Shown: piece after piece, positions 7,813-13,761 of the stretch
How the letters are laid out: the number at the start of each line of letters is the position of its first letter
How positions within the stretch are numbered: position 1 is the stretch's first letter
NCBI RefSeq assembly: GCF_002943425.1
Contig: NZ_PTRA01000001.1
Span: 1-64,000 of the forward strand
Length of the DNA: 64,000 nucleotides
Source of the DNA: Siphonobacter curvatus
GTDB taxonomy: Bacteria > Bacteroidota > Bacteroidia > Cytophagales > Spirosomataceae
Direction: 5' to 3'
The notes under the pieces: model-generated
What the model saw: only the letters and a program-made list of their open reading frames with translations
The model's database searches: none
What the model was told of the DNA's origin: nothing
Made by a program: the position numbers and the translations under genes

Positions 7813-7920
7813 TCGTACGTATGCTAAGACAAAGCACTGTACTTGTGGACTTTTGGAAAGATCAGTAATTCTGACAAGATATTCCGCGATTTTGACAAGT
7901 GTAAATTATATGTATATACA

Positions 7921-7928
7921 TACATTTG
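7921..7928 (+). promoter_or_regulatory. Possible -7 element for the YceI gene
   Basis: TACATTTG fits TAnnTTTG and lies 22 bases ahead of the start codon, which would give a very short leader. The nearest TTTG (7891-7894) is 26 nt away, longer than usual, so support is weak. The surrounding TATATGTATATACATACA is palindrome-like. Confidence 0.35.
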
Positions 7929-7950
7929 TATCAACAAAAACAACAAAGAC

Positions 7951-8484
7951 ATGGCAACTCCAGCAAAATGGGTAATTGACCCTACTCACTCGGAAGTACA
8001 GTTCAAAGTAAAGCACTTAGTAATCACGACCGTAACGGGTCAGTTCGGCCAGTTCAGTGGTGAAGCTACGGCCAGCGACGATTTTTCAGACGCTCAAGTA
8101 CATTTCGAAGCTGAAATTAATTCTATTTCTACCAATAACGAAGCTCGTGACGGTCACCTGAAAAGTGAAGATTTCTTTGCTGCCGAGCAACATCCCAAAC
8201 TGAGCTTCGTCTCTACGGGTATCACTAAGAAAGGCGACGAAGAATTTGTATTGCAGGGCGATATGACCATTCGTGGCGTAACCAAACCCGTATCATTCGA
8301 CGTAGAATACGGTGGAACGGTAGTAGATCCGTACGGACAAACGAAAGCTGGTTTTGAAGTGAAAGGTAAAATCAACCGGAAAGATTATGGTCTGACCTGG
8401 AGTGCAGTAACTGAAGCCGGTGGAGCCGTAGTAAGTGACGAAGTACGTTTAATTGCAAACGTTCAGTTCGTAAAACAAGCCTAA
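7951..8484 (+). CDS. YceI-family lipocalin-fold protein
   Basis: 177 aa from the ATG at 7951; the longer reading frame to 7843 covers promoter sequence and is rejected. The hallmark WVIDPTHSEVQFKVKHL opens the protein and TIRGVTKPV lies in the middle, both standard for YceI. The family forms an elongated barrel that binds polyprenyl-type lipids; some members are induced by stress or high pH. There is no signal peptide, so this copy is predicted cytoplasmic, as in several Bacteroidota paralogues. A probable terminator follows at 8525-8563. Confidence 0.92.
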   Translation: MATPAKWVIDPTHSEVQFKVKHLVITTVTGQFGQFSGEATASDDFSDAQVHFEAEINSISTNNEARDGHLKSEDFFAAEQHPKLSFVSTGITKKGDEEFVLQGDMTIRGVTKPVSFDVEYGGTVVDPYGQTKAGFEVKGKINRKDYGLTWSAVTEAGGAVVSDEVRLIANVQFVKQA

Positions 8485-9363: not shown

Positions 9364-10263
9364 CTACAGCAGCACCGTAACATGCAGTTGTAGCCGCTGT
9401 TTCGCCCGACTATCTCCCCCGGAAAGCTCTTGAGCCAGCGGTGGCTGAATATTGGCACCCGCGACGAAGCGACCGAAATAAGCTTCCACACCTGCCGTAG
9501 CAAGCGTTGCGTAGCCGCCCGTCTGGGAGTTACGCACGCCGTCTTTCAGATCGCGACTGGAATACTCAGCCGTAATGCCTGCATTGGGCATCAGTGTCAG
9601 TTTCTTTCCGGCACTGGTTACGTAAAAGACCGACGTTGAGCCACTGAGCCGATTTCCAAAGCGATAGTGCTGAGCGTTGGTCGTCGTCATCCGGTAACTA
9701 ACGTCCGAGTTCCAGCCCCAGGAACGGTACCGAAGGGTGTAAATCGCATTCAGCAGGAAATCCGTACTGCCCGTTCCGAGTTGAAAATTAGCATTGGCTC
9801 CCAGCGATCCATCGTTTACGAAATTCGAGCGACCCGTGGCCAGCTTCACGCCACCCCCCAGGAGCAGCGTATGATTCACGGCCCGGTCCGTCGTATCCAT
9901 GTTCGTATTGAAAACGTTGTAATTGGCCAGTACCGTAATATCACCCAGTCCATTCAGCCGTGAAGAAGTCGCAGCGTCGGACTGGTAATTGAAGTTGTAC
10001 GGTACAAAGGCCAGCATCTGAATTCGCTGGGTCGGATAAAAACGTCCCCAAAGCTCCGTCGTTTGAAAGGTTTCTTTGGTACGCAGGAGTTGGGAATTCA
10101 GGTGCGAGTCGTAGGTACGGTACCGATACCGAACTCCCACAAAATTGCGGTACGACTGCGGCATGATGCCGTAATAGGCATTGCCTACGCCACAGCCGCA
10201 GATATCGCAGGCCCACGCGGGTAGCGACAGGCTCCAAAATAGAAGCAGTACGATTTTTTTCAT
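9364..10263 (-). CDS. Outer-membrane barrel-like protein with N-terminal CDICGCG motif
   Basis: 299 aa. The signal peptide ends at Ala18 and the mature protein starts with C-D-I-C-G-C-G (Cys19, 22, 24). The rest is a chain of amphipathic strands with many aromatic ends, typical of a transporter-like outer-membrane barrel. The clustered Cys could bind a metal or, for Cys19, carry a lipid. It is the last gene of the operon, 12 bases after the MbnH-like gene. Proteins with this start occur beside di-heme peroxidase/MbnP genes in Bacteroidota (from memory). A role in copper or electron handling is inference from context. Confidence 0.8.
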   Translation of the reverse strand: MKKIVLLLFWSLSLPAWACDICGCGVGNAYYGIMPQSYRNFVGVRYRYRTYDSHLNSQLLRTKETFQTTELWGRFYPTQRIQMLAFVPYNFNYQSDAATSSRLNGLGDITVLANYNVFNTNMDTTDRAVNHTLLLGGGVKLATGRSNFVNDGSLGANANFQLGTGSTDFLLNAIYTLRYRSWGWNSDVSYRMTTTNAQHYRFGNRLSGSTSVFYVTSAGKKLTLMPNAGITAEYSSRDLKDGVRNSQTGGYATLATAGVEAYFGRFVAGANIQPPLAQELSGGDSRAKQRLQLHVTVLL

Positions 10264-10275
10264 GAAAAAGACGGG

Positions 10276-11304
10276 TCAGGGAACCGCCAGTTGCTTGTTC
10301 GTAAGAAATTCTTCGTCGGTCAGTGTTTTCAGGAAGGCAATGATTTGCTGCCGTTCCTGCTGCGTGAGAGCGATTCCTCGTTGGCCGTTACTAGCTTTCA
10401 GAATCGGGTCTAGGTTGGGCGTATCGTGTACGTTTTCGGCGTAATGATCCAGTACCGCTTCTAAGGTATAGAACCGACCATCGTGCATGTACGGGCCCGT
10501 AACTGCTACATTCCGTAAGCTGGGTACGCGGAAGGTATAGCGATCTTTCTCCTGATTCGTGATCCGAAACCGACCTTCATCGGCATCGCTAGTGAGAAAA
10601 AGTCCGTTGTTGCGATAGCTGCGATCCGTAAACAGTTCGCCCGCGTGGCAGGAGGAGCATTTCTGCTGAAAAAGGTGCAGACCAGCCTGCTCGTCGTTCG
10701 TCAGCGTAACGCCTTCCTTACGTACAAAATGATCGTAACGGGAGTTCGCGGAAACCAGTGTCAGCATAAACTGAGACAGTGATTGCAGAAACCGGGCCGT
10801 TGTAATTTCTTCCGTACCAAAAGCCTTTTTGAAGAGCAATGGATACTTTTTGGTAGCCCGCAGTTTATCAATCACATTCGTCATAGTTTCACCCATTTCT
10901 ACCTCACTGATGATTGGAGCAATCGGTACCAGATCCAGATCCGGTACACCACCATCCCAGAAAAACTCTGATTCCCAAGCCAAATTTTGCAAGGGTAGGG
11001 AATTACGGGTTCCTTTCAGGTTGTGGATACCGTGGCTGACGTCGTGCCCGTGGTGCGTAAATCCGTACGGCTGCGAATGACACTCGGCACAGGAAATGGT
11101 ATTGTCCTTCGAAAGCAAGGTTTCATTGAAGAGAGCTTTCCCCAGTTCCACGCCCGAAGTCGTCAGTGGATTCCGTTCGAACGCATACAATGGCTTCGGG
11201 AAGTTGGCGGGTACGGTAAATGAGACTTCCGGCCCGGTCCGTTCGGGCGACGAACAGGACCAGACCAGCAGTACTATCCACACACCGGCCCAGAGCCTAG
11301 TCAT
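10276..11304 (-). CDS. MauG/MbnH-type di-heme c-type peroxidase lipoprotein
   Basis: 342 aa from the ATG at 11304, which overlaps the stop codon of the MbnP gene by 8 bases; an upstream TTG is rejected. Lipobox with Cys17. There are two CXXCH heme sites, C72-A-E-C-H76 and C216-S-S-C-H220, with a MHDGRF segment near the C-terminus, as in bacterial cytochrome c peroxidase/MauG. MbnH, of this family, oxidises a tryptophan of MbnP to kynurenine. Its tight overlap with MbnP supports that role over simple peroxide removal, but a cytochrome c peroxidase function remains possible. It acts in the periplasm. Confidence 0.88.
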   Translation of the reverse strand: MTRLWAGVWIVLLVWSCSSPERTGPEVSFTVPANFPKPLYAFERNPLTTSGVELGKALFNETLLSKDNTISCAECHSQPYGFTHHGHDVSHGIHNLKGTRNSLPLQNLAWESEFFWDGGVPDLDLVPIAPIISEVEMGETMTNVIDKLRATKKYPLLFKKAFGTEEITTARFLQSLSQFMLTLVSANSRYDHFVRKEGVTLTNDEQAGLHLFQQKCSSCHAGELFTDRSYRNNGLFLTSDADEGRFRITNQEKDRYTFRVPSLRNVAVTGPYMHDGRFYTLEAVLDHYAENVHDTPNLDPILKASNGQRGIALTQQERQQIIAFLKTLTDEEFLTNKQLAVP

Positions 11305-12094
11305 TGTGAATGTGGTCAACCGTAAACATATTCACGTAGTTGTTGGCCAGCGGAGCCGCTACGGAAGGATCATGTACCGATTTGGTTTCCTGAAGTTTCA
11401 GGGCCGTCGTACTGTTGAAGAACTTATGAAGATTGACTACAAAATGAATCGTCGGGCTGATGGATTTACGTACGGTGGCCGTTCCGTTCAGGGGCAAGGT
11501 TACGGTACGGATGTTATTGGGGGCTTGATTCGTATAGCCACCATATCCGCCTACGTGGTACTGAAAGGGTCGTAACCCCGCTCCATTGGCCGGCACGACT
11601 GGGGAAGTTCCTTCAAATTTGAAGAAGATATAGCCGGAATTCCATCCCCACCACATATTGTCCTCCCCGTACGCATAAGTATCCAGTACTCCCGTCCGTC
11701 CAGCAATGGGCGAGGCACTCTTCAGGCTATCGACACCTACCATAAAGCTTACCTCGCTGTAATCACCTTCTGGAACGTTTTTCAGTTTAGGCTCCCAGGT
11801 CTCCGAATCGGCCTGGCGAATGAGGAAGTACTGATCCGGAAATTTTATGACGGTACCGTCCGTTTTTTTCAGCGAGACATTGCTGATGAAGTAATTCAGT
11901 GTGGTGACTGAAAACTCCTCGCCGAAGTCATTTTTGTACGGCGTAGTGCCCAGTACCAGCTTTTGAGCACCCACTCGGTTATCAAACTCAAGTGTTAGGC
12001 TAGGACCATCCGGTTCGGGTTCCTCGTTTTTACAGGCCGTGAAAACGGTGGTACAAAAAGCGAATAGAAGAAGGAATAAGGGATTGATTTTCAT
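11297..12094 (-). CDS. MbnP-like copper-binding lipoprotein
   Basis: 265 aa. Lipobox FTAC with Cys21. The mature protein matches the MbnP family: beta-rich, with the signature GEDNMWWGWNSGYIFFKFEG, which holds Trp148, Trp149 and Trp151, followed by GLRPFQYHVGGYGG (His180), then IHFVVNLHKFF (His217, His223) and a C-terminal DHIHN (His261, His263). In characterised MbnP, a tryptophan converted to kynurenine and histidines bind copper; the enzyme needed is the partner MbnH. Here di-heme genes lie on both sides (21-base gap upstream, 8-base overlap downstream). Which Trp is modified is not visible. Confidence 0.85.
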   Translation of the reverse strand: MKINPLFLLLFAFCTTVFTACKNEEPEPDGPSLTLEFDNRVGAQKLVLGTTPYKNDFGEEFSVTTLNYFISNVSLKKTDGTVIKFPDQYFLIRQADSETWEPKLKNVPEGDYSEVSFMVGVDSLKSASPIAGRTGVLDTYAYGEDNMWWGWNSGYIFFKFEGTSPVVPANGAGLRPFQYHVGGYGGYTNQAPNNIRTVTLPLNGTATVRKSISPTIHFVVNLHKFFNSTTALKLQETKSVHDPSVAAPLANNYVNMFTVDHIHND

Positions 12095-12115
12095 TGAAAA
12101 AGTATCTTGATTTGC

Positions 12116-13207
12116 CTACCGGACGGGGAATCCCGCGGGTTCGGCAAAGCGTTGGTCTTTTAAAAATTCAGTATCCGTCAGCGTATTCAGAAAAGCGATA
12201 ATCTTCCGTTTTTCGTCGGCGGTCATGGGTATGCCTAAGCGTCCGTTTTGCTTCAGCAGCGGATCGAGGTTGGGCGTATCCTGTACGCCTGAGGCGTAAT
12301 GATCGAGCATTTCCTGCAACTTAGTAAAGCGGCCGTCGTGCGTATAGGGCAGACTTTCGGCAATATTCCGCAGACTGGGAACCTTAAACGTAAAGCGGTC
12401 CGATTCCTGTTTGGTTACCGTATAGCGACCTTCGTCGACCACTACTTGTAAGGTAGGTTTCCCATTGACGTATACCACTTTAGTACGCTCAAACTTCGGC
12501 AAGCCGTTATTGCGGAAGCTACCGTCCGTGAATAACTCTCCGGCGTGACAGCTTTTACAGCCTTTCGATTCGAAGAGTTTCATTCCTTCCAGCTCATCCG
12601 CCGATAGGGTTTCGCCTTCCTTACGGACGTATTTGTCGTACCGTGAATTGGCTGAAACCAGCGTCAGCATAAACTGGGTGAGGGCATGAAGCGTCCGGTC
12701 TGCCGTAATATCTTCCGTACCGTACGCGGCTTTGAACAGGGGCGGGTAGCCCTTCGTCCGCTGGAGTTTCTTTACTACGTTTTCCATCGTATCATCCATC
12801 TCGTCGGGATGAGTGATTGGTACAATGGCTTGTAGATCAAGGTTTTCTACGGCACCGTCCCACATGTAATGTTTTTGCCAGGCCAGATTCTGAAGGGCCA
12901 GCGAGTTGCGAAGGCCCGTCCGATTCTCAATACCGTGACTTAAATCGTGCATGTGGTGGGTAAAGGCGTAGTATTGACGGTGGCATTCACCGCAGGCAAT
13001 GGTACTATCCCGCGAGAGTATGCCATCGTAAAATAATTGTTTACCCAGGGCAAAACCCGCTTCGGTCACCGGCTTTTGGGCGACGGGGTAATCGGGTTGT
13101 GGAAAGTTCTTAGGTATACTGAACAAGGGCACGGGTGCCGAGGGAGCGGGGTCCTTCGAGCACGCCAGACTGATCAGAAAAATCAGGAATGGGTATACTT
13201 TTCTCAT
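12116..13207 (-). CDS. Second MauG/MbnH-type di-heme c-type peroxidase lipoprotein
   Basis: 363 aa from the ATG at 13207. Lipobox with Cys16. Heme sites C72-G-E-C-H76 and C217-K-S-C-H221. It aligns along its length with the 10.3-11.3 kb protein (shared SRDSTIACGECH-like and ALTQFMLTLVSANSRYD segments), but has an insertion of about 20 residues after FRNNG (KFERTKVVYVNGKPTLQVVV). The two are paralogues, probably from duplication. The insertion may alter substrate access. It stands first of the di-heme/MbnP trio, 79 bases after the small Cys/His protein. Confidence 0.88.
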   Translation of the reverse strand: MRKVYPFLIFLISLACSKDPAPSAPVPLFSIPKNFPQPDYPVAQKPVTEAGFALGKQLFYDGILSRDSTIACGECHRQYYAFTHHMHDLSHGIENRTGLRNSLALQNLAWQKHYMWDGAVENLDLQAIVPITHPDEMDDTMENVVKKLQRTKGYPPLFKAAYGTEDITADRTLHALTQFMLTLVSANSRYDKYVRKEGETLSADELEGMKLFESKGCKSCHAGELFTDGSFRNNGLPKFERTKVVYVNGKPTLQVVVDEGRYTVTKQESDRFTFKVPSLRNIAESLPYTHDGRFTKLQEMLDHYASGVQDTPNLDPLLKQNGRLGIPMTADEKRKIIAFLNTLTDTEFLKDQRFAEPAGFPVR

Positions 13208-13292
13208 AAGCAAAGCCTTGCCGGCGGCACACAGCCGTACAATTCATTTATACGTCGAGAAAGGTGTAAAAGTGTCTGTTAGTACCTAAAAA

Positions 13293-13694
13293 CTAGGAAA
13301 AGATCACCTGGGGCGGGCGAAAACAGTCACTTAAGGAGTCATGCACATAGACTGGAGCCAGGAAAGGCGTGGGCTCCAGCTCACGTTCGGCCCATGAAGA
13401 AAGGACAAACGTAAAGGTCGTCAGCAGATGTTCATGCGGCAGTTCCAGCAGCTGCGTTACCAGACGCTGGCTGGCTTCGCGTTCATCGTGTTCCTGAGCG
13501 GCTTTGAGTTTTTTTGCCAGGTAACATTTTCCGTCGCAGTGTAACTCGGGACGCAATCGATTTTCGCAAAGGTACTGAGCAATGTAATCGTGCCGAAGCT
13601 CGAAGTCAACCAGAATGACCGGGACTACGAGCGTGCGTAACATCAGAAGCGATGTCAGCACATACACGCCGAAAGTCCGCAGAGTTGCATTCAT
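13293..13694 (-). CDS. Small membrane-anchored Cys/His protein, function unknown
   Basis: 133 aa from the ATG at 13694 (a 146-aa form starts at 13733). One hydrophobic span near residues 8-27, then a soluble part with ENRLRPELHCDGKCYLAKKL, containing three Cys (one just before, in YLCENR, plus HCDGKC) and a nearby His. A Glu/His-rich segment and a C-terminal FRPPQ follow. I recall similar proteins next to copper or TonB-receptor genes in Bacteroidota but no characterised function. Its position at the head of the copper/MauG operon suggests a metal-related role (inference). Confidence 0.65.
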   Translation of the reverse strand: MNATLRTFGVYVLTSLLMLRTLVVPVILVDFELRHDYIAQYLCENRLRPELHCDGKCYLAKKLKAAQEHDEREASQRLVTQLLELPHEHLLTTFTFVLSSWAERELEPTPFLAPVYVHDSLSDCFRPPQVIFS

Positions 13695-13761
13695 GGGTGC
13701 AAAGCTAAAGCTGGAAAGGAAATCACGGACCATTTATTTCACAAAAATCCGAGGAGAACAA

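Follow-up and report, generated by a model that had tools for sequence, protein, structure and literature searches.

A two-enzyme variant of the MbnP-MbnH system within a probable Bacteroidota copper unit of Siphonobacter curvatus

The locus described here lies in a window of 64,000 nucleotides, the whole stretch of DNA that was analysed (Siphonobacter curvatus, contig NZ_PTRA01000001.1, positions 1 to 64,000). On the minus strand of the window, from 13694 to 9364, five open genes follow one another in the transcription order CYS-UP-MbnP-DN-BAR (Table 1): a small Cys protein, an upstream di-heme enzyme (UP), a member of the MbnP copper-protein family, a downstream di-heme enzyme (DN) and an outer-membrane beta-barrel. 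They are open at the positions given in the initial annotation, which had been made from the letters of the window, and are separated by the gaps it listed, 79, 21, -8 and 12 bases from CYS to BAR, the first of which assumes a UP start at the TTG at 13213 and becomes 85 with the alternative ATG at 13207. The layout in which two MbnH/MauG-type paralogues flank one MbnP is confirmed, and the Siphonobacter locus represents a genuine two-enzyme form of the MbnP-MbnH system, inherited and set within a copper unit of Bacteroidota.

Table 1. Genes of the five-gene unit, in order of transcription (positions in the window)
Gene	Product	Position	Strand	Family evidence or start
CYS	Small Cys protein, first gene of the unit	13293-13694	-	ATG at 13694; start in the open reading frame list 13733
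UP	Upstream di-heme MauG/MbnH-type protein, likely lipoprotein	12116-13213	-	PF03150
MbnP	Copper-protein family member, likely lipoprotein	11297-12094	-	PF20243
DN	Downstream di-heme MauG/MbnH-type protein, likely lipoprotein	10276-11304	-	PF03150; ATG start; start in the open reading frame list TTG 11319
BAR	Outer-membrane beta-barrel	9364-10263	-	Predicted model and Foldseek

Profile searches assign the central protein to PF20243 (E 7.2e-53; 179.7 bits for a cut-off of 27), as the single MbnP match in the whole 6.39 Mb genome. Both flanking proteins match PF03150, CCP_MauG (UP 173 bits, DN 171 bits, cut-off 25.6), a family with seven matches in this genome. With this match and their two CXXCH motifs, UP and DN are members of the di-heme CCP/MauG superfamily. 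They are 58% identical to each other, and the next closest di-heme protein of the genome is 46% identical to UP. The search of family models against the five proteins had been proposed in the initial annotation, which staked its reading on an MbnP-family match for 11297-12094; its description of an MbnP-type protein between two di-heme CXXCH lipoprotein enzymes is borne out by these matches.

Of the genomes searched, 112 of 150 from the family, 136 of 194 from the order and 78 of 296 from the phylum contain MbnP, the three sets overlapping. Gene neighbourhoods were read in the window and in 80 stretches from the family, 40 from the order and 20 from the phylum, hand-picked among the matches listed, and the resulting frequencies are rough. 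A neighbour is the next recognised gene (MbnP, di-heme, BAR or CYS) on the same strand at 450 bases or less, other intervening genes being ignored and contig ends counted as no neighbour. Under this definition 116 of the 163 sampled MbnP have a di-heme neighbour only downstream and 24 have one on each side; in 3 it lies only upstream, and 20 have none. The 24 still include L044, dropped elsewhere as a duplicate of L043 (leaving 162 MbnP), and L187, which is not a two-enzyme locus but two tandem MbnP-enzyme pairs. The usual order in Bacteroidota relatives is CYS-MbnP-di-heme-BAR, and the earlier statement that the usual unit pairs one MbnP with one di-heme enzyme holds. The MauG-MbnP-MauG order, the frequency of which it had been proposed to count, concerns 16 of 98 MbnP in the family, from seven genera, and outside the family 5 of 44 in the order sample and 1 of 20 in the phylum sample. 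CYS directly precedes UP in 15 of the 16 family systems; this recurrence in seven genera, with CYS in front, argues that the order is not due to chance. Many units with CYS and BAR have no UP. A further set of named loci (L079-L093), mostly repeats of other loci and excluded from the counts, shows the two-enzyme layout in 14 of 15 cases, in Siphonobacter, Flectobacillus, Arundinibacter, Pseudarcicella, Persicitalea, Rhabdobacter, a record labelled Cellulophaga and a Cytophagales bin.

The MbnP protein retains what is expected of a copper site of this family. With a predicted model of modest quality, all six Foldseek matches at E <= 1e-3 are chains of the MbnP structure 7L6G (TM 0.40-0.50). Similarly, for a profile built from 33 Bacteroidota MbnP, 7L6G is the only solved relative (E 2.1e-5), and in this alignment M147, W149, W151 and H180 correspond to its M-A-W-N-W motif and His. 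In the alignment of 162 MbnP, where the same WxW with a Met two positions before and a later His is found, W149 and W151 are invariant (162/162) and M147 and H180 are each present in 156, the same six proteins being exceptional and carrying Glu at 180. In the MbnP paper of 2021, the first Trp of WxW is reportedly converted to kynurenine, and the Met and His are said to bind Cu(I). By analogy, W149 is the candidate kynurenine and M147 and H180 are presumably the Cu(I) ligands of a predicted site in the Siphonobacter protein. The residues listed in the initial annotation are all present (MWWGW at 147-151, His180, 217, 223, 261 and 263), to which H241, overlooked there, has to be added; Trp148 and His223 are not general features of the family. 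Position 148 is Tyr in 121 of the 162 MbnP and Trp in 2, which makes W148 a local Tyr-to-Trp change, and we rejected it as an oxidation target; H223 was dropped as not conserved. The six exceptional MbnP (L061, L074, L078, L102, L188 and L192) keep WxW, have lost the Met and carry Glu in place of the His ligand (e.g. SWMWHTSYIF ... ETG). Each of them lies near another MbnP, and they perhaps contain a modified Trp without copper.

In an alignment of 165 enzymes (those of 280 residues or fewer were excluded here and from the tree below), both CXXCH motifs, Glu138 and Tyr306 in UP numbering are kept in all 165 and the inter-heme Trp118 in 159. Y306 of UP and Y293 of DN align with a Tyr of the MbnH structure 6E1C. 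The two enzymes have the Tyr of the MauG/MbnH type at the second heme, where the peroxidase MacA seems to have Met, the residue expected at the high-potential heme of a classical bacterial cytochrome c peroxidase; we take both this Tyr and the Met of MacA to be heme ligands. The MacA Met directly follows the residue aligned to H305 of UP, at a place where the gap can be set in more than one way.

Several features set UP apart. In a tree of 93 enzymes, which took 45 of the 117 one-enzyme rows and whose bootstrap is not fully settled, all 16 upstream enzymes of the family fall into a single long-stemmed clade with support 100/100. A segment of 24 residues after the second heme motif (UP 238-261) is present in 16 of 16 UP; it measures 7-15 residues in all 21 downstream enzymes of two-enzyme loci and reaches at least 23 in 3 of the 117 others. 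The C-terminal tail GFPVR is near-fixed as well, with G361-F362-P363 in 13 of 13. DN groups with the downstream enzymes and, judging from this position, is the counterpart of the single enzyme of one-enzyme relatives. Both UP and DN are under purifying selection: in the two computable pairs, dN/dS equals 0.034 and 0.046 for UP, 0.049 and 0.056 for DN and 0.123 and 0.071 for MbnP. Sites are rather saturated in one of these pairs, L040 versus L042, and for the window versus L040 and L042 saturation of the synonymous sites makes the ratio undefined.

Upstream enzymes from other families of the order group apart from these, in a second clade (8 rows, 100/96), and the single upstream enzyme of the phylum sample branches far away in the tree. 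Since the upstream enzymes fall into separate clades, the two-enzyme layout, which according to the phylogeny is inherited, arose at least twice. The MbnP of the other-family systems also form a branch of their own (8 rows, 98/87) and lack the C-terminal HxH tail discussed below. In L188 and L192, MbnP is followed by two di-heme genes in tandem, a further route to two enzymes.

The genes at both ends of the unit encode conserved cysteines. CYS has a hydrophobic N-terminus, which suggests that it could be the inner-membrane part, followed by C-x9-C-x3-C (CENRLRPELHCDGKCYLAKKL) and a C-terminal PP; each of the three Cys is found in 100 of 101 relatives and PP in 101 of 101 (CYS shorter than 80 and BAR shorter than 200 residues were excluded from the Cys counts). 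No Pfam or NCBIfam model matches CYS at E <= 0.1. Directly before its start, TAGCTTTG at 13700-13707 of the window, on the minus strand, resembles TAnnTTTG, which we take to be the Bacteroidota -7 promoter motif. BAR has three Cys in C-D-I-C-G-C (C-x2-C-x-C) at its probable mature N-terminus, assuming signal cleavage after A18; C19 and C22 occur in 73 of 73 relatives and C24 in 70. Its AlphaFold model (mean pLDDT 72) has the fold of the COG4313 channel (4RL8, E 5.1e-9) and of FapF (5O65, 5O67 and 5O68; top match 5O67, E 3.5e-11), with TM up to 0.73 by target length, and its 20 top Foldseek matches are all FapF and 4RL8 chains. BAR nevertheless shares only 12-15% identity with these proteins, and differs from them by the N-terminal C-x2-C-x-C and by the lack of any Pfam or NCBIfam match at E <= 0.1, the COG4313/FapF families included. 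The earlier proposal that the CDICGCG barrel is the outer-membrane part gains support from this fold. BAR was found in 68 of the 150 family genomes; all but one of these 68 also have MbnP (67), the lone exception being a 77% complete assembly.

The C-terminal His of MbnP vary together with these two partners. H261 and H263 (HxH) occur together in 75 of the 162 MbnP, and H217 accompanies them in 75 of 75 versus 9 of the 87 others. By the neighbour definition given above, HxH is present in 61 of 74 MbnP with BAR nearby versus 14 of 88 without, and in 71 of 96 with CYS nearby versus 4 of 66 without; these counts, like their Fisher values and the one for the co-occurrence of BAR and MbnP in genomes, ignore ancestry, which inflates them. 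HxH does not form one clade, at least eight changes being needed on the tree, three of them forced by supported branches. The set H217/H261/H263 tracks BAR and CYS, and the HxH end of MbnP may be a second metal-handling end that meets one or the other and could bind copper.

What could UP act on? The two-enzyme genomes contain a single MbnP in 13 of 16 cases; G046, G053 and G083 have two, the pair of G083 being a duplicated stretch. In the genome of the window a second MbnP as UP substrate was discarded, there being one match only. Moreover, in 7 of the 16 systems MbnP has no Trp besides W149 and W151. The 'different Trp' evoked in the initial annotation as targets of the two enzymes can consequently mean, in general, only these two; W148 or another Trp as general second target is lost. 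W100, a Trp in 9 of the 16 family two-enzyme MbnP and 1 of the 146 others, is suggestive as a lineage-level hint; it was not kept as a general second target, being absent from the remaining 7.

Two atypical cases are informative in this respect. In Siphonobacter aquaeclarae (L039 = L084), the locus lacks CYS, a genome search in which 15 of 24 candidates were scored gave no BAR, and MbnP has neither H217 nor the HxH tail, while UP and the core residues of MbnP are kept. The downstream enzyme of this species is distant, outside the downstream clade and devoid of the inter-heme Trp. Since UP and MbnP stay together there without BAR in the genome or CYS at the locus, the lasting partner of UP would be MbnP. 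In Siphonobacter sp. SORGH_AS_0500 (L043/L044 = L080/L081), a frameshift interrupts DN in each copy of a duplicated stretch, and UP and MbnP are open; this frameshift may be a sequencing or assembly error. Both cases are compatible with an ability of UP to work with MbnP, by a reaction that is putative.

The nearest described system is that of Methylosinus trichosporium, to which we attribute MbnH 6E1C, the partner of MbnP 7L6G. The Siphonobacter unit shares with it the MbnP fold, M-x-W-x-W and His, the adjoining di-heme gene and the Tyr of 6E1C. It differs by its two partner enzymes, by the C-terminal HxH with H217 and by the links with BAR and CYS; in addition, the mature Siphonobacter MbnP has no Cys except the probable lipid Cys, whereas the name of 7L6G refers to a four-Cys motif. 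MauG has the inter-heme Trp, the Glu and the Tyr in common with UP/DN, and all belong to the PF03150 superfamily; the NCBIfam MauG model gives UP and DN 182-185 bits (UP 182) for a cut-off of 444. MauG, known for the tryptophan tryptophylquinone (TTQ) reaction on methylamine dehydrogenase, likewise modifies protein Trp (PMC3912023). Unlike in the MauG system, no methylamine dehydrogenase is found among the five genes here. In the methanotroph pairs CorA-CorB and MopE-SACCP, PMC3912023 and PMC3621798 describe a copper site with a Trp-derived kynurenine and a gene lying beside that of one di-heme protein, thought to make the kynurenine; the Siphonobacter unit has two. Among the papers listed by our literature search, which had most subscription papers outside its reach, none dealt with two MbnH or with a Bacteroidota CYS-MbnP-MbnH-BAR unit.

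Considering the genes and their order, the families, the residues, the phylogeny, the association of the His set with BAR and CYS, and the mostly single MbnP per genome, we favour, with a probability of about 0.6, a two-enzyme maturation of one MbnP, within a Bacteroidota copper unit CYS-MbnP-MbnH-BAR to which a second MbnH-type enzyme has been added. DN would be the MbnH proper and, from what is known of the family, likely makes kynurenine from W149, the first WxW Trp, by a peroxide-driven oxidation. Kynurenine 149 would then provide, together with M147 and H180, the Cu(I) site of MbnP. UP would be a diverged and selected paralogue working on the same MbnP; our best guess is that it adds a second oxidation, most likely at or beside WxW, or else that it acts as the partner of DN. 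Copper would be exchanged between MbnP, where the C-terminal His set would assist, and BAR, a channel of the outer membrane with a Cys tip, together with CYS. One may go further and imagine that UP and DN perform two successive and different oxidations on one WxW motif, giving a double modification (kynurenine 149 with a modified W151 or a neighbouring Tyr) and hence a cofactor not seen in one-enzyme MbnP, which would have evolved independently in two Bacteroidota lineages; we regard this bolder version as speculative and rather doubtful.

A number of points weigh against such a maturation by two enzymes. The MbnP equivalog model TIGR04052 gives only 37.3 bits for a cut-off of 140, for which reason we file MbnP under PF20243. 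TIGR04039 (MbnH), the top NCBIfam model for both enzymes (UP 236 bits, DN 225 bits), stays below its cut-off of 362.85, and they are consequently termed MbnH-type and not MbnH. The MbnP model, with a mean pLDDT of 69 and values below 50 at 126-154, is too weak to show the site. The trees do not settle the nearest relative of UP among downstream enzymes, and in the MbnP tree, which took 55 one-enzyme MbnP, the MbnP from two-enzyme loci of the family do not group cleanly into one clade. Between two-enzyme and HxH one-enzyme MbnP we found scattered differences, none of them a newly fixed Trp, Tyr, Met, His or Cys. Position 241 was dropped from the coupled His set, as it is Met or His in 74 of 75 MbnP with HxH and also in 73 of 87 without, and shared ancestry lowers the weight of the linkage counts. 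UP could also have its substrate elsewhere in the genome. Finally, we infer the chemistry of kynurenine, copper and catalysis, as well as the step of UP, copper binding by the His set and the direction of copper flow.

The alternative that survives best, although it is unlikely, supposes that UP and DN both catalyse one and the same oxidation of W149, the difference between them lying solely in the conditions (e.g. peroxide level, electron donor or copper level). The catalytic positions of the two enzymes are identical and both are under purifying selection; furthermore, the split DN of SORGH_AS_0500 and the Trp-less downstream enzyme of S. aquaeclarae look as if UP sufficed alone. However, the long stem of the UP clade, its constant 24-residue segment and its near-fixed tail exceed what mere redundancy would require, and the DN frameshift may not be genuine. 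That UP is a peroxidase or redox partner which feeds or protects DN and does not modify MbnP appears improbable to us: some classical peroxidases do come slightly above 6E1C in sequence searches of the PDB (6E1C is third for both UP and DN), but UP scores 236 bits with MbnH versus 182 with MauG, and the Tyr aligned to that of 6E1C is kept in every enzyme where MacA, with the gap ambiguity mentioned, seems to have Met. Equally improbable is an obligate heterodimer in which UP and DN make one enzyme. Relatives of these proteins are dimeric, the paralogues flank the same MbnP and UP has its clade-specific segment, yet UP of S. aquaeclarae persists beside a downstream enzyme from outside the downstream clade. 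We give least credit to UP modifying CYS, BAR or another protein and lying next to MbnP by operon membership only, since its place directly after CYS in most family systems is offset by S. aquaeclarae, where UP stays beside MbnP without CYS at the locus or a BAR found in the genome, and by the many CYS and BAR units without UP.

Two-enzyme maturation of MbnP thus keeps from the initial interpretation the MbnP with two MbnH/MauG paralogues, the one-enzyme arrangement as usual unit and the outer-membrane fold of BAR; it abandons W148 or any other Trp outside WxW as a general target, and the idea that one of the enzymes is a peroxidase comes out weakened, with some small probability left.

The neighbourhood of related units points to a copper context. 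In L053 the unit follows NosZ (cut by the edge of the stretch), NosL, NosD, ABC genes and a fasciclin protein; similar nos-cluster genes lie beside the unit in L060, and only some of them in L154-L156. This position of a CYS-MbnP-di-heme unit next to nitrous oxide reductase genes suggests a role in copper supply to NosZ. Within the window, the five-gene unit is free of nos genes, a search for them elsewhere in the genome not having been made. Other fetched stretches contain relatives of YHS-domain, PepSY and TonB-receptor proteins. In the window a YceI-family gene lies near the unit, at 7843-8484 (132 bits for a cut-off of 232), with relatives in other Siphonobacter stretches and in Pseudarcicella.

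Few purified proteins are known to carry a copper site that depends on kynurenine and, to our knowledge, each of them has a single di-heme partner. With a two-enzyme version that recurs in cultured Bacteroidota, mostly with one MbnP, a clean genetic test of each enzyme and of a second modification would be possible. The His set, the Cys-tipped channel, the small Cys protein and, at some loci, the nitrous oxide reductase genes suggest that Bacteroidota have a complete copper route.

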